From Deltaproteobacteria bacterium (GTDB lineage Bacteria > Desulfobacterota > Dissulfuribacteria > Dissulfuribacterales > UBA3076), in the NCBI GenBank assembly GCA_018399745.1, contig JAGYNZ010000014.1, positions 1 to 59,895 on the forward strand: a DNA stretch of 59,895 nucleotides, given 5' to 3'. The notes beneath the pieces are model-generated. The model saw nothing but the letters and a program-made list of their open reading frames with translations. It did not search any database and was not told the DNA's origin. This document shows positions 5,489-59,895 of this stretch, piece by piece (the stretch's first letter is position 1; each line of letters opens with the position of its first letter). A program made the position numbers and the translations under genes.

Positions 5489-6814
5489 TCATATTCCCAA
5501 AACCGCGTTAGCAATCAAAAAATAAACAATCAGCCCCAGCGAGTCGACTAGGGTGGTAACGATCGGAGCACTCACTATGGCGGGATCGACGCCCAGCCGC
5601 TTGGCAGCCATGGGAAGCAGGGCGCCGGTCGCGGCGGCCAGCAGACATATGGTTACCAGCGACAAAGATAATACAAGGGAGATCCTCAGATCGAACACCA
5701 GTGAAATTGGCACCAGAGCTATAGCCGCCAGCATTGCGCCCAGCAGCATACCTACCTGCATTTCCCTGAAAAGTACGCGGGGCAGGTCTCCGAAACGCAC
5801 TTCATCCACCGCCATTGCCCGGACGATAAGAGTCGATGACTGAGACCCAACGTTTCCGCCTGTATCGATCAGCAGGGGGATGAAAAGAGCCAGTGTGACC
5901 ACCGCTTCCAGGGATTGTTCAAAAAAGTTAAGCACGTTTATGGAAAGAGTCGCTGCAAGGATCAGAACGAGCAGCCACAAAGCCCTTGTCTGTGCCAGGT
6001 TCTTTACGGACGCCGAAAGATAAGGCATTTCAAGGGGTCTGGATGCACCCCCAAGGGCGATGTCCTCCGTATCTTCATGCTCCAGGATTTCCATGGCGTC
6101 GTCAAAAGTCAAAATCCCCACCAGCCGGCCTTCCATATCAACGACAGGCAGAGCGATAACGTCGGCTTCCTGAACCAGGCGGGCCGCTTTTTCGCGATCC
6201 TCTCCTACTTGAACTGAATACACGTCGGTAGTCATAATATCGCCGATGATGGTGTCCGGTTCGGCGAGTACAAGATCTCTCAGACTGATAACTCCCAAAA
6301 GCACCAAGTAATCATCGGTAACCGGCAACATGTAGACTGATTCCGCATCCCTGCCGTTTCTATGCACCTTTTCCAGTGCCTGTGCGGCGGTCATGCTCTG
6401 CCTTAGGGCTACAAACTCCGGGCTCATGACGCGGCCGACGGAATCAGACGGGTACCCCAGGAGAATAGAGGTCATCTTTCGTTCCTGTGGATCCAGCCCC
6501 TCAAGCAATTCCCGCGCAACCTTGGCAGGGAGTTCATCGATAAGCCGGACACGGTCGTCCGGGTCTAATTCTTCAATAAGTTCCCTGGCCTGCACATCGC
6601 GCAGGGATGTTATGAGCTGGCCCTGCTGCGCCGGTTCCATTGATTCGAATATGTCGAGTGCGATATCCTTTGGCAGGAATCTGAATGCGATAGCGAGTTC
6701 AGACGGTTTGAGCCTGTATAGCTCATTGACTATCTCCAGACTATCATGCTCAGCATACCATTGCTGAAGCTGATGCCAATCTTTTTCAACGAGATACTGG
6801 GCCAGATTGGACAT
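5489..6814 (-). CDS. mgtE: Magnesium transporter MgtE
   Basis: A 441-residue transporter. The ATG at 6814 is preferred to an upstream start because AGGAG lies 6 bases before it and the product then begins directly with the MgtE N-domain. Order: superhelical N-domain (about 1-130, with repeated ELLEGLDPQER-like helices), two CBS domains (about 130-255) and five C-terminal transmembrane helices with the conserved FIPLLIDTGGNVGSQSS filter region. MgtE is an Mg2+-gated channel in the inner membrane that closes when cytosolic Mg2+ binds the N and CBS domains. No Mg-responsive M-box leader is seen upstream. A CorA gene elsewhere in the window gives a second Mg2+ route. Confidence 0.95.
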   Translation of the reverse strand: MSNLAQYLVEKDWHQLQQWYAEHDSLEIVNELYRLKPSELAIAFRFLPKDIALDIFESMEPAQQGQLITSLRDVQARELIEELDPDDRVRLIDELPAKVARELLEGLDPQERKMTSILLGYPSDSVGRVMSPEFVALRQSMTAAQALEKVHRNGRDAESVYMLPVTDDYLVLLGVISLRDLVLAEPDTIIGDIMTTDVYSVQVGEDREKAARLVQEADVIALPVVDMEGRLVGILTFDDAMEILEHEDTEDIALGGASRPLEMPYLSASVKNLAQTRALWLLVLILAATLSINVLNFFEQSLEAVVTLALFIPLLIDTGGNVGSQSSTLIVRAMAVDEVRFGDLPRVLFREMQVGMLLGAMLAAIALVPISLVFDLRISLVLSLSLVTICLLAAATGALLPMAAKRLGVDPAIVSAPIVTTLVDSLGLIVYFLIANAVLGI

Positions 6815-7073
6815 TTGTTTCTCCTGAGTTAAATTCCATATAAGTATAACGAAAAGCTTGAGAAACGAGCGCTTTTTGCGCATTCCGCTGGTACGCTTTG
6901 TGCAGGCCCGGCACGGAAATAAACTTATAGGGTAAAAATCCTACGTATTAACCTTTCCGGGGCAGGTTTTGAGGTTAACAAAAGTACCGGCCAAAGGCAA
7001 GGACGTCACAATAGGGGTGCCCAAAGAAAGCCGAAGCACAGCGGTTTGAGCCGACGAGCAGAGGTGACTTTAA

Positions 7074-7592
7074 ATGATGATAGCGGCCACGGATGTTCAT
7101 TATTTTGAGACCGGCTGTGCGGCGGCCTGTGTGCTGTTCTCAGATTACAGCGATAGACGGCCTACAGCATCATATACCAGAATCCTGCCACCACCAGCGG
7201 ACTATGTGCCTGGGGAGTTCTACAGGCGGGAACTTCCATGTATTGTAACGCTGCTCCGGCAGATCAATCCGTTGCCGAATGAGATAGTCATTGACGGTTA
7301 TGTGACTCTCGGGGATTCGCCTGGTCTTGGACACTACCTCTTTAAATCCCTTGGCAGTGAAATACCGGTGGTTGGTGTGGCCAAATCCAGGTTTAAGGGA
7401 TCTTTTGGAATCGAGGTCTTCCGGGGTAAAAGCACACGTCCTCTGTACATAACATCTGCCGGGACAGAACCGCAAAAGGCGGCTGAGAAAATCAGGACGA
7501 TGCATGGGGCCTATCGAATACCGACCCTGCTGAGGCAAGTAGATATTCTGGCAAGAGAAAGGGCCGGTCAACTGCTTTCTCCAAAAAGTTAA
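7074..7592 (+). CDS. nfi: Endonuclease V, short form
   Basis: A 172-residue protein aligning with endonuclease V from the first catalytic Asp (DVHY near residue 7) through YVPGEFYRRELP (catalytic Glu), VIDGYV (second Asp), VGVAKS and the C-terminal MHGAYRIPTLLR. It would cut DNA or RNA one base past deoxyinosine. E. coli Nfi is 223 residues; this copy lacks about 30 residues before the first Asp but keeps the metal-binding residues, so it may be active. A GAGGTGA ribosome site precedes the ATG. The TM2 gene follows 13 bases later and is probably co-transcribed. Confidence 0.85.
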   Translation: MMIAATDVHYFETGCAAACVLFSDYSDRRPTASYTRILPPPADYVPGEFYRRELPCIVTLLRQINPLPNEIVIDGYVTLGDSPGLGHYLFKSLGSEIPVVGVAKSRFKGSFGIEVFRGKSTRPLYITSAGTEPQKAAEKIRTMHGAYRIPTLLRQVDILARERAGQLLSPKS

Positions 7593-7605
7593 TAAGAGGT
7601 CAAAA

Positions 7606-7818
7606 ATGACTGAAAAGCGAATTCTGCCGGTCTTTCTGCTCTGTTTTTTCGTGGGTCTTTTGGGCATTCACCGATTCTATGTGGGAAAGATCGGAACCGG
7701 TATACTGCATATGTTAACCCTGGGCTGTTTCGGTATATGGACAGTAATCGACTGTATTTTGATTATTGCAGGAGAGTTTACAGATAAAGACGGAAACAAA
7801 ATCAGGCAATGGACATAA
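7606..7818 (+). CDS. TM2-domain membrane protein
   Basis: A 70-residue protein with two helices and the TM2 signature: GLLGIHRFYVGKIGTGILHM, then LGCFGIWTVIDCILI. The DRF/HRF-type turn between the helices is typical of TM2 proteins, which are small inner-membrane proteins of unknown role. GAGGT lies just before the ATG. Adjacent to endonuclease V, but a functional link is not implied by sequence. Confidence 0.85.
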   Translation: MTEKRILPVFLLCFFVGLLGIHRFYVGKIGTGILHMLTLGCFGIWTVIDCILIIAGEFTDKDGNKIRQWT

Positions 7819-7974
7819 AGAGGCATAATCATAAAGGCGTCCCTGACGGACTTTATCAGGGTAAAGCCCGTACAGAATTTTATGCCGATTCGCACGGGCA
7901 AACACCAACCCTGCAGCTTTATACCAGAGTGACCATTAATCCTCTCTCGCACGTACCGGCGGCCCGAATCCTCA

Positions 7975-8568
7975 CTAGAAGTTTATGCGCAGCCCGCCCA
8001 TCACACTGTGTGTGCTGTATTCGGCCTCAAAGTAATCAAAATCAGGGTCTTCAGTAGCAAAGTAGCGATATTGAAAATCAAGGTTCATATTGTAGCCCAC
8101 CGGCAAACTCACACCGGTCATGATCTGGTACGCAAAGACAGTATCATCGTCCTCGCCCCAATAGTCCACATCGAACTCCACATTAGCAACACCGATGCCC
8201 GCCCCTATAAAAGGGCTGAACTGACGACCCGGCAGAAAATCGAAAAAGGCGTTGCCCATTACTGAAAAGGAATCGACATCCCCACCGATGCCGCCGGGAA
8301 ACTTTCTGTCCACGTCGTTAAAACGGTAGCCTATCTCAAATTCCGTCCGAAGCCCGGTGCCCAGGTCATAGCCAATCGCTCCGGTCGCTGCCACGCCGGT
8401 GTCGAATTCAGCTTCATCACGAATACCATCAAACCAGGTGATATCCGAATCCTCTACCCAGACTGCCCCCAGATTGCCGGAAAAGTACATACCCTGAGCC
8501 CATGTTAATGAGTTTCCCATCACCAGAACAAGAGCTGTTGCCGATAGAATCAAAAATGTCCTTTTCAT
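7975..8568 (-). CDS. Outer-membrane beta-barrel protein (OmpA-like barrel)
   Basis: A 197-residue protein from an ATG at 8568 (GGGGGG ribosome site upstream) with a signal peptide ending near TWAQ. The mature part alternates short amphipathic strands with acidic turns, begins with a MYFSGNLGAVW strand and ends in phenylalanine (LRINF), the sorting signal for BAM-inserted barrels. FSPFIGAGIGVANVEF matches the opacity/OmpX-OmpA 8-stranded barrel family. No OmpA C-terminal peptidoglycan domain is present. Probably a small structural or adhesin-type outer-membrane barrel. Confidence 0.82.
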   Translation of the reverse strand: MKRTFLILSATALVLVMGNSLTWAQGMYFSGNLGAVWVEDSDITWFDGIRDEAEFDTGVAATGAIGYDLGTGLRTEFEIGYRFNDVDRKFPGGIGGDVDSFSVMGNAFFDFLPGRQFSPFIGAGIGVANVEFDVDYWGEDDDTVFAYQIMTGVSLPVGYNMNLDFQYRYFATEDPDFDYFEAEYSTHSVMGGLRINF

Positions 8569-8778
8569 AACGACCCCCCTGATGAATTTATAATCCGTCA
8601 AATAATTATTCCAGATAATTATCCTCATATGAATGAGCTGTACATTATTTGATATAAAAATAACCGAACCTGCAAAGTACTTTGAGACCGCCGCGAATTA
8701 TGACCTCCCCCTTCAACATGAGGCATATTCAGGTGAAAAAAATAAGTCGAGTCGAATTCATTATAATAGCTGGTTTAC

Positions 8779-9078
8779 TTAATCGTGGAAATCCGTTTTT
8801 TCTCTCAATTCCCTCAGACCCTCGCGATTATAAATTATAGAACCGATGAGACACTCGAATTTTTTTCCAAAAACCGGCCAGCCAACCTCGACATTCCTGG
8901 TAAAATCTCTAATCCTCAACTCATTTATTTTTGGTTCCCTTGGCGGCCTGACCGGATACTCCGTATTGGCTTTCAGTGTCAAAATCAGGTCATTACCGCG
9001 GTGCTGTACCGAGGCCACTGAGGCATCGATTATCCACTCGTCCTTGTTGGCTATGGCGAAATCGTCTCTTATGGCCAT
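8779..9078 (-). CDS. Small soluble protein of unknown function
   Basis: A 99-residue protein from an ATG at 9078 (AGAGGT upstream). It is rich in charged residues and predicted strands (DEWIIDASVASVQHRGNDLI; KINELRIRDFTRNVEVGWPV) with no signal peptide, cysteines or known motif. It stands alone between the outer-membrane barrel and a lipoprotein gene, all on the same strand but 200 bases apart. Not recognised. Confidence 0.5.
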   Translation of the reverse strand: MAIRDDFAIANKDEWIIDASVASVQHRGNDLILTLKANTEYPVRPPREPKINELRIRDFTRNVEVGWPVFGKKFECLIGSIIYNREGLRELREKTDFHD

Positions 9079-56833: not shown

Positions 56834-56952
56834 AGATCATCTTATATAAACATAGTATAACACCGAGGCAACTTTAGGACAGGGGAGGATCATACTAAAT
56901 TCAAAATCCTTGAAGGCTTTCGGGCTCTGTGTTAAACAAGATCTCAACTGAT

Positions 56953-57029
<77 letters not shown>

Positions 57030-57182
57030 TTACTTTTTTCTTTTGAAGGCCTTCTCATCCAGCTTATTCCCTTTATTATTTAAAGCAAAAATCCTGAAAT
57101 ATGATTGGATTTGTTGAGCAAAAGGCCAAAAGAGATCTATACAAAAATCGGCACGGTACCATAAGGGCTTAGAGAAACAACT

Positions 57183-57689: not shown

Positions 57690-57693
57690 GCCG

Positions 57694-57710
57694 TCCCTTC
57701 AAAAAAGGGA
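57694..57710 (+). terminator. Weak intrinsic terminator after the TrmO-like gene
   Basis: TCCCTT (57694-57699) pairs with AAGGGA (57705-57710), 5-base loop, followed by an A/T-rich stretch (ATAAAATCTTTC). Short stem; low confidence. Confidence 0.4.
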
Positions 57711-57773
57711 ATAAAATCTTTCAGGTTTAAGTATCAAGGGTAACGTTAATCATGCCATGTCTAAATCCTCCTG

Positions 57774-57950
57774 TTATGCCGATGGATAGATCTTTTCGCG
57801 GATATGTGCCCCAAAAAGTCCGCGTTTTCTCTTATCAACATGGACGTTAATGTCGTCCTGGTAACCGTGACCGCGATAACCCATATCAACAAATACATCA
57901 TGCTTTAGAAAAATCCTTCTACCCTGGCCCTTTCTGTTAATCCCTCTTTC
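57774..57950 (-). pseudogene. IS5/IS1182-type transposase remnant
   Basis: Minus-strand translation ending in a TAA at 57774-57776 reads HDVFVDMGYRGHGYQDDINV then HVDKRKRGLFGAHIREKIYP and SA. This matches the DxGYRG strand and the following segment of IS5-group DDE transposases. About 55 codons remain; upstream of it the frame loses coding pattern, and the glutamate of the DDE triad, which should follow GRRxG, is absent. No terminal inverted repeats or start codon are visible, so it is a fragment of a lost insertion element. Confidence 0.6.
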
Positions 57951-58036
57951 TCTCCCCAGTCTCTTTATAATCTAAGTCCCAACTTTATGGAAATTTCCTT
58001 GATGATACTTGCAATAAATCAATATTACCCTGTTTT

Positions 58037-58171
58037 ATGCCGAAATATCATTATGAGAACATGAATAATCGACACAGAAGGATTCAGTCTATCATTTTTT
58101 CTGTTTTATTAATTTATGCCCAGGCAATCATTTCAGACAAAAAAGAATTCACGATCACAGGATTAAAATAG
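58037..58171 (+). CDS. Possible 44-residue signal-peptide-like protein
   Basis: ATG 58037 opens a frame of 44 codons with a basic start, then a hydrophobic stretch (SIIFSVLLIYAQAII) and a short charged tail; an inner ATG at 58061 is the alternative. Its TAG overlaps the kinase GTG start (TAGTG), the arrangement of coupled genes. No strong ribosome site is visible, and the frame could be chance in AT-rich sequence. Low confidence. Confidence 0.3.
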   Translation: MPKYHYENMNNRHRRIQSIIFSVLLIYAQAIISDKKEFTITGLK

Positions 58172-59895
58172 TGAATGACTACAACTATGTGATAAAAGAA
58201 TACGCTTTAGCCCCCTGGTCTGTACTTGAACAATACAGAATAGAAGAAATTCTTAGATATGATCGTTTCAGTATTACTTATAAGGCCTTTAATATTAAAT
58301 TAGATCTGTCTGTCAATATAAAAGAGGCCCTGCCCCAGGATTTAGTAATAAGAAAAACAGACAATGAGATACTTGCCAAATTTCCTTCGGATGAGGATGT
58401 CTTCCAGAAGGGGCTCAAATACTTCGTAGAAGAAGCAGAAACTCTCGCCAAGTTTACACATCCAAACATTGTACGGGTGTTGGGATGCTTCAAAGCCAAT
58501 GGGACCGCATATATGGTCATGTCTCATGAGAATGGTGAAACTCTCAGACAGCAACTCGACCGTATGGGACCTGACAGAACTATGCCGGAAGAAAGGATCA
58601 AACTCTGGTTGAAAGATATTCTTTGCGGTTTAAAGGCCTTACATGAAAAGGGAGTTTATCATAGGGATATCAAGGCAGATACAATTTTTTTAAAAAAAGA
58701 CGGATCTGCCATGCTCATCGATTTTGGGGGCCCACATTATGCCGTCAATAAAGAATTTCATAATAAAAATGCCGCTTCGTCTGACGAATATTCAGGTGAA
58801 TATTTGCATGCGTATGAAGAAAAAGACGGTTTGTGGGCGGACATTTATCAGCTCGGTACTGTGGTATATGAATGTGTGACAGGGCAGAAACTCCCTGACA
58901 TCCAGATCCGGGTTCAATCATCATTAAATAACGAATCAGATCCAGATATAGAAGCATTAAAACAGGCGGTATATCGAGGTTACAGTAAGGACTTTCTGGA
59001 CACCTTAGTGCTTGCCATTTCCTGTACTGCAATTGATCGGCAATCTGCGACGAATGCATCAGAAAGGTTAATTCTGACGAGTGATAATCAAATAACGGCA
59101 AAAGAGAATGAAGAAGGTGATTTAGATAAAGAAGTCAATGCGCCCGAATATAAAAAGACCCCTGATCCTGATGAAGAAATTCTCCTGGAAATGGAAGATC
59201 TGAATGAGACCGAAGAGATTAAAAATGAAGAGATCAGCAGTGAAGCTGATATCTCAAAACCTCCAAAAACCGAAAATGAAGAAAAATCCCCTTCAGAAAT
59301 AGATAAAGAAGTCAATGCGCCCGAATATAAAAAGACCCCTGATCCTGATGAAGAAATTTTCCTGGAAATGGAAGATCCGAATGAGACCGAAGAGATTAAA
59401 AATGATGGGGTTGAAGATAAACCTGATGTGGTTGGGCATGTTCAGGTGGACGAGCATGGCAAAATACAGGGAAAAGATAAAAAAGGTGATCTGCTCAAGG
59501 CAGTGTTGTCAGTTGGTCTTGTAGTTGGTCTCATGGCATTGATTTTTTTTATTTTCTTGAGACCCGGCCTTATAGTTTTAAGCCAGCCAAGTGGATCCAC
59601 GGTTTTTTTAGATGGAAATTTTGCAGGAGTTACCCCTCTAAATACTAAGAGATGGCTGTTTGGAAAGCATATGATTAGTGTAAAAAAGAAGGGATATTAT
59701 AGTTATGAACAAAGTATCAAGATACCATTAGGGAAGACTAAAAAAATTTATACAGAACTCTCTCCGAATGTCTACGCTGAAAATCCGTATGCCAGTCTTG
59801 TAGTGAAAAGCTCACCTAGGGGAGCACGAGTATTTCTTGACGGAATAGAAAAGGGCATCACTCCCTTATATCTAAAAAATGTTGAGCCGGGATTA
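58171..59895 (+). CDS. PEGA-domain Ser/Thr kinase-like protein, probably inactive; cut by window edge
   Basis: From GTG 58171 (AGGA upstream) 575 codons are open to the edge. Residues 17-290 are a Hanks-type kinase fold of the large bacterial receptor-like class: NIKEALPQDLVIR with the ATP-site Lys (near 54), EEAETLAKFTHPNIVRVL, YHRDIKADTIF (near 163-170) and LIDFG (near 183). The glycine loop LGxGGFG reads LRYDRFS with no glycine, and the Asn of HRDxKxxN is Thr, so phosphoryl transfer is doubtful. An acidic linker with a duplicated segment leads to a membrane helix (about 445-465) and at least two PEGA domains (VFLDGNFAGVTPL; VFLDGIEKGITPL) on the other side of the membrane. Confidence 0.82.
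   Translation, partial: MNDYNYVIKEYALAPWSVLEQYRIEEILRYDRFSITYKAFNIKLDLSVNIKEALPQDLVIRKTDNEILAKFPSDEDVFQKGLKYFVEEAETLAKFTHPNIVRVLGCFKANGTAYMVMSHENGETLRQQLDRMGPDRTMPEERIKLWLKDILCGLKALHEKGVYHRDIKADTIFLKKDGSAMLIDFGGPHYAVNKEFHNKNAASSDEYSGEYLHAYEEKDGLWADIYQLGTVVYECVTGQKLPDIQIRVQSSLNNESDPDIEALKQAVYRGYSKDFLDTLVLAISCTAIDRQSATNASERLILTSDNQITAKENEEGDLDKEVNAPEYKKTPDPDEEILLEMEDLNETEEIKNEEISSEADISKPPKTENEEKSPSEIDKEVNAPEYKKTPDPDEEIFLEMEDPNETEEIKNDGVEDKPDVVGHVQVDEHGKIQGKDKKGDLLKAVLSVGLVVGLMALIFFIFLRPGLIVLSQPSGSTVFLDGNFAGVTPLNTKRWLFGKHMISVKKKGYYSYEQSIKIPLGKTKKIYTELSPNVYAENPYASLVVKSSPRGARVFLDGIEKGITPLYLKNVEPGL
59125..59406 (+). repeat. Direct duplication, 177-bp period, in the kinase linker
   Basis: About 105 bases from 59125 recur from 59302 with only two mismatches (C/T in a Leu/Phe codon and T/C in a Leu/Pro codon). 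Both copies encode DKEVNAPEYKKTPDPDEEI and the acidic stretch after it. The period is 59 codons, so the frame is kept. It is a recent in-frame duplication in a low-complexity acidic linker. Confidence 0.93.

Follow-up and report, generated by a model that had tools for sequence, protein, structure and literature searches.

The window (the entire contig G000:C6, 59,895 bases) ends in a gene for a single-pass membrane protein whose cytosolic domain is related to PpkA-type kinases, without a glycine-rich loop or the catalytic Asn. We consider this protein most probably a membrane pseudokinase scaffold, in which a phosphotransfer-dead PpkA-type domain would be kept for binding or signalling while an ectodomain of PEGA and Lcl_C domains senses a ligand. 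Since the catalytic parts are lost in all seven readable species and the gene has still been kept by selection, it probably acts in signalling or as a scaffold rather than as an enzyme.

Gene layout and neighborhood

The gene begins with a GTG codon found at the aligned position in every orthologue, and its 3' end is missing from the window (Table 1); as the window is a whole contig, the truncation is an effect of the assembly. Pfam recognized a Pkinase domain (PF00069; 5.1e-28, 98.6 bits against a cut-off of 31.7) and two stretches of PEGA (PF08308; 1.1e-19, 70.5 bits), and the only strongly hydrophobic segment lies between the two. In this copy the β3 Lys (K51), the αC Glu (E88), HRD (D166), and DFG (D184) are all intact. 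A preliminary description of this DNA had read it in the same way, as a kinase fold that keeps the ATP-site lysine, HRD, and DFG, with PEGA domains across a membrane; it had also noticed that every glycine of the P-loop is gone (LRYDRFS) and that Thr stands for Asn in HRDIKADT, and we located both changes at residues 28 to 34 and T171. The acidic linker varies in length between species and is built of repeats: the 106-nt copies of the window are 177 nt apart (59123-59405), while G001 has a unit of 171 nt (L040:8689-9085).

Table 1. Features of the pseudokinase receptor gene in the window
Feature	Position	Strand	Evidence or remark
Pseudokinase receptor gene	58171..59895	+	starts with GTG; 3' part lost at the contig end; 575 aa read
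Kinase fold of PpkA type lacking Gly loop and catalytic Asn, approximately residues 20-300	58228..59070	+	Pfam, PpkA 5hnv, AF2
LRYDRFS replacing glycine-rich loop, residues 28-34	58252..58272	+	L-R-Y-D invariant in 7/7 orthologues
Catalytic loop HRDIKADT, residues 164-171; Asn to Thr (T171)	58660..58683	+	T/S in 7/7
DFG, residues 184-186	58720..58728	+	invariant in 7/7
Activation segment / P+1 loop, degenerate; APE-type Glu lost	58729..58830	+	identity rank, dN, pLDDT about 30
Acidic linker made of repeats, D+E = 33%	59071..59502	+
Linker repeat, copy 1, 106 nt	59123..59228	+
Linker repeat, copy 2, 98% identical to copy 1	59300..59405	+
Transmembrane helix, residues 445-463	59503..59559	+	hydropathy peak 2.91
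PEGA domain 1, residues 466-532	59566..59766	+	Pfam
PEGA domain 2, cut by contig end	59788..59895	+	Pfam; start coordinate approximate

The remainder of the gene was found at the extreme end of another contig of the same genome (C17, L091), which carries PEGA and a region matching Lcl_C. We assigned this piece from its match to the orthologue of G001, with whose C-terminal part, Lcl_C included, it shares 78% identity over 192 aa; its frame is open at the contig end. Complete orthologues have 790 to 971 residues and three or four PEGA domains, with a terminal Lcl_C/DUF1566 domain (PF07603) where scanned (60.6 and 63.5 bits); the full orthologue at L040, for example, has four PEGA stretches followed by Lcl_C at the C-terminus.

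Congeners with a complete gene share the order pseudokinase, response regulator (REC and DUF4388), histidine kinase, and SNF2-type helicase, the last called by sequence inspection. On C17, 15 bp separate the end of the pseudokinase gene from the stop of the response regulator gene, which is convergent and not cotranscribed with it. Within the genus, 8/8 genomes have the response regulator and 7/8 the histidine kinase; elsewhere the two occur in 1 of approximately 50 relatives searched. This cooccurrence with the pseudokinase is suggestive, but the convergent orientation speaks against a link, as does G005, where the histidine kinase gene is missing between the response regulator, which is kept, and the SNF2-type gene (L101:2157-2322, G005:C39). 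Upstream, the position of window 57690-58170 is occupied in L036, L037, and L040 by a DUF362 gene that neither the window genome nor G002 has, and an apparent ORF at 56929-57117 is explained by a tRNA-Pro (TGG) at 56953-57029.

The best PDB match of the cytosolic domain is PpkA (5hnv), with a profile match of 3.3e-40 over residues 19 to 298. A first AF2 model had a pLDDT of 54.8; after three relatives from viral contigs were added, the model from 10 sequences reached a mean pLDDT of 70.9 and a pTM of 0.73, with an activation segment of about 30. Both Foldseek and VIA-align placed PpkA as the top match of this model (Z 23.4, rmsd 2.8, 249 aligned). Considering that the profile match and the model point to the same kinase first, a kinase fold is present, the model being informative for the fold and too coarse for the ATP pocket.

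Shared motif loss under purifying selection

All the carriers of orthologues belong to the genus UBA3076, which corresponds in named records to Seep-SRB2 (Candidatus Desulfomithrium), of the order Dissulfuribacterales. These bacteria reduce sulfate and live in syntrophy with ANME and related archaea (PMC10553843). That study also lists a PEGA protein, which may be the one described here. Orthologues 70 to 86% identical were found in six of the seven other congeners, and in the seventh (G002) the C-terminal half was found near a contig end; therefore, the gene is present in each of the eight genomes of the genus. No orthologue was found in three genomes of other genera of the family nor in the sampled rest of the order, where the best matches were approximately 1e-14 to 1e-16, and no close relative was found on viral contigs. 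In this sampling, the pseudokinase variant is restricted to UBA3076. PpkA-like kinases are themselves rare in the phylum (5/395 genomes at 1e-45, counting that of the window), which makes a horizontal gain likely.

The preliminary description had proposed checking whether all the orthologues share the loop loss. They do: the seven readable kinase domains, that of the window included, have an LRYD loop without any glycine and T/S at the catalytic Asn, and none has the normal motifs. Hence the loss is not a local mutation, and a recent change of a single copy was rejected. Other positions have gone in single species with the frame open, HRD becoming HKN and the αC Glu becoming Thr in G005, and the β3 Lys becoming Arg in G007. 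What is kept (DFG in 7/7, the HRD Asp in 6/7, and the β3 Lys in 6/7) indicates that nucleotide binding may persist. Under the strict triad (β3 Lys, HRD Asp, and DFG Asp), broken in G005 (HKN) and G007 (Arg) and complete in the window copy, the latter taken alone would not be classed as a pseudokinase. The catalytic-loop Lys is Arg in the six orthologues besides the window (HRDIRPDT, HRDVRPET, and HKNIRTDS), so Lys168 of the window has probably reverted from Arg. This substitution was dropped as evidence for a pseudokinase, being uninformative, since intact PpkA-like kinases also lack that Lys (HRDIS/HRDIA).

Loss of this kind is rare outside the orthologue group and exceeds what chance would give. 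Among 65 nonorthologous kinase domains with aligned motifs, all but two retain the Gly loop and the Asn, and both exceptions also lack the HRD or the DFG Asp. Just one lacks the loop glycines and the Asn together, and it is itself a pseudokinase that has also lost DFG and HRD (GFG, HGH).

In a maximum-likelihood tree the seven sequences form a single clade (100/100) that is nested among intact PpkA-like kinases and whose sister is a pair of Azospirillum kinases (94/86, unstarred). The stem of the clade is long (0.85 changes per site) and its tips are short (0.04 to 0.11), which points to rapid change once, followed by constraint. The loss is selective: of 54 columns conserved (≥85%) in 21 intact PpkA-like kinases, ten were lost in the UBA3076 clade, and among these are four glycines of the Gly loop as well as the Asn and the APE-type Glu. 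Pairwise dN/dS among orthologues is 0.19 to 0.38 with all the frames open, indicating purifying selection; the constraint is weaker than on the flanking genes (0.11 to 0.21), yet far from neutral. Within the domain the rates are inverted, with a dN of 0.047 for the replacement loop versus 0.325 for the activation segment. In the clade, only one of 247 blocks is less conserved than this segment, whereas in intact kinases it ranks 139. The replacement loop ranks 33 of 272 in conservation, so that, relative to the domain, its conservation is strong but not extreme.

A rate control with active kinases of the genus failed, as the kinase on C56 occurs in G000 only and that on C4 in few congeners. 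The C56 gene (L042:8703-11377), thus found in 1/8 congeners, fuses a cNMP-binding-like domain to a kinase with HQDIKPAN and is followed, by sequence inspection, by genes for a PP2C-type phosphatase and for an adenylate-cyclase-like protein.

Possible roles of the receptor

The pseudokinase reading of the preliminary description is supported by the shared motif loss, the open frames, the purifying selection, and the retained fold. Its remark that such bacterial proteins are poorly described holds for their function, which is almost unknown; however, families of bacterial pseudokinases have been catalogued (PMC12599244). In the mechanism that we propose, which takes up its suggestion of envelope sensing or scaffolding, the PEGA repeats and the terminal Lcl_C/DUF1566 domain would bind or sense an envelope or extracellular ligand, probably a glycan. 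Binding would be relayed through the transmembrane helix and the acidic repeat linker to the cytosol, where a partner may dock on the pseudokinase, the invariant LRYD loop being a candidate contact. The neighboring response regulator or histidine kinase may be involved. A much more specific version, to which we give little credence, is that the Seep-SRB2 receptor recognizes the archaeal partner or the shared matrix via a glycan and, possibly gated by nucleotide through DFG and LRYD, switches the pair formed by the REC-DUF4388 regulator and the histidine kinase.

Like CASK, which handles metal and ATP in an unorthodox way, the window protein could be an active kinase that uses K51, D166, and D184 without a Gly loop or Asn. 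The intact K51, E88, HRD, and DFG of the window copy and the invariance of DFG would suit such an enzyme, and active relatives tolerate the loss of the catalytic-loop Lys. Nevertheless, sister orthologues lose HRD, the αC Glu, or the β3 Lys without decay of the frame, the Glu of the fast-evolving P+1/APE region is gone, and the other 65 domains keep the Gly loop and the Asn, apart from the two that had also lost HRD or the DFG Asp; we regard activity as unlikely. The single losses weigh as well against the proposal that the fold has adopted another nucleotide-dependent chemistry (AMPylation as in SelO or glutamylation as in SidJ, precedents given in PMC12599244), for which the invariant DFG and the conserved new loop could be adduced: with HRD, K51, and the αC Glu each lost in single orthologues, no fixed catalytic set beyond DFG is visible, and this proposal appears very improbable.

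The ectodomain might also be the whole point, the protein serving mainly in cell-surface adhesion or in the matrix with the cytosolic kinase fold as an inert anchor. Its PEGA and Lcl_C domains fit that role, and the C-terminal domain of Legionella Lcl binds sulphated glycans (PMC11162425). However, an inert anchor needs neither purifying selection on the pseudokinase domain nor a conserved new loop sequence, so this explanation too has a rather low probability. A decaying pseudogene in the window strain, or an assembly artifact, which the motif loss and the truncated ORF could at first sight suggest, was rejected and has next to no probability: the frame is cut where the contig stops, its remainder lies on C17, and the seven open frames are under purifying selection.

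The scaffold that we favor would offer a clean evolutionary series, in which a burst on the stem removed the Gly loop, the Asn, and substrate-site residues together, the new sequence was then held under selection, and single species later lost HRD, Lys, or the αC Glu. It also lends itself to testing as a candidate sensor of the envelope or of a partner, given that the hosts are syntrophic with archaea and that the Legionella counterpart of the outer domain binds glycans. Should it turn out to be an active kinase instead, we would learn to what small extent a kinase depends on the Gly loop and the Asn.

Comparison with known kinases, pseudokinases, and surface proteins

PpkA-type Ser/Thr kinases (PDB 5hnv and 5x1r) are the nearest solved relatives by sequence and fold, and they share with the window protein the pattern Y-x-A...IKE-x-x-P-x-x-L-x-x-R. 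However, PpkA retains the GEGGFG loop and the Asn (HRDISLDN), and the window protein has neither. Two PpkA-like relatives adjoin genes of the type VI secretion system (T6SS), whereas VipB/TssC (PF05943) is absent from 8/8 congeners by a search that was positive in the E. coli control; a T6SS role inherited from PpkA is thus unsupported. A role as a defense kinase was also discarded, since MADS6 (NCBIfam) scored 79.4 bits against a cut-off of 460 and the PADLOC matches to mad6 and PD-T4-6 reflect general kinase similarity.

The best intact matches are PpkA-like kinases of G298, from the same phylum (E of 3e-68 and 3e-65), and of Azospirillum (40% identity to the window protein). Unlike it, both sets have all the catalytic motifs. 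The C-terminal domains of the G298 kinases are, by eye, Sel1-like and FGE-like and not PEGA/Lcl_C, while the Azospirillum kinases have DUF805 and an FHA-like N-terminus (by eye) and lie beside PP2C genes. G298 has, besides two intact paralogues, a third PpkA-like copy (C4, L082:1949-3712), in which the loop reads LGRGREG, HLD stands in place of HRD, and the activation segment is degenerate. A separate decayed pseudokinase pair of the same phylum is coded by two adjacent PpkA-like domains in G257:C65 (L086:4200-6083 and 6098-8842), the first with LVEE, HGHLSPTT, and GFG and the second with WLFE, RHDLSPDN, and SPR. The PpkA-like protein WP_015452065.1 of Azoarcus sp. KH32C plasmid pAZKH (L127) carries the annotation Ser/Thr kinase; its motifs read HWNISPEQ and DSG, and it is probably a pseudokinase as well.

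Among the bacterial pseudokinases described, the DYD and CP1 families resemble the window protein in having lost part of the motifs and kept others. DYD proteins have a β3 Arg and no αC Glu (PMC12599244), which does not fit, as K51 and E88 are present here; CP1 proteins have no transmembrane segment and are fused to COG3899 (PMC12599244), unlike the window protein, with its one transmembrane helix and no COG3899-type domain among the Pfam matches. EssB/YukC of type VII secretion is a precedent for such a scaffold, being a single-pass membrane pseudokinase that also has a degraded Gly loop and an altered activation loop (PMC12599244). However, EssB has all three catalytic motifs degraded and a role in secretion, while the window protein keeps K51, HRD, and DFG and exposes PEGA/Lcl_C outside. 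For the outer part, the counterpart is Lcl of Legionella, which differs from the pseudokinase receptor in its collagen-like stalk and in lacking a kinase fold, and which carries at its C-terminus the same PF07603 (DUF1566) domain as the orthologues; in Lcl this domain binds sulphated glycosaminoglycans (PMC11162425).
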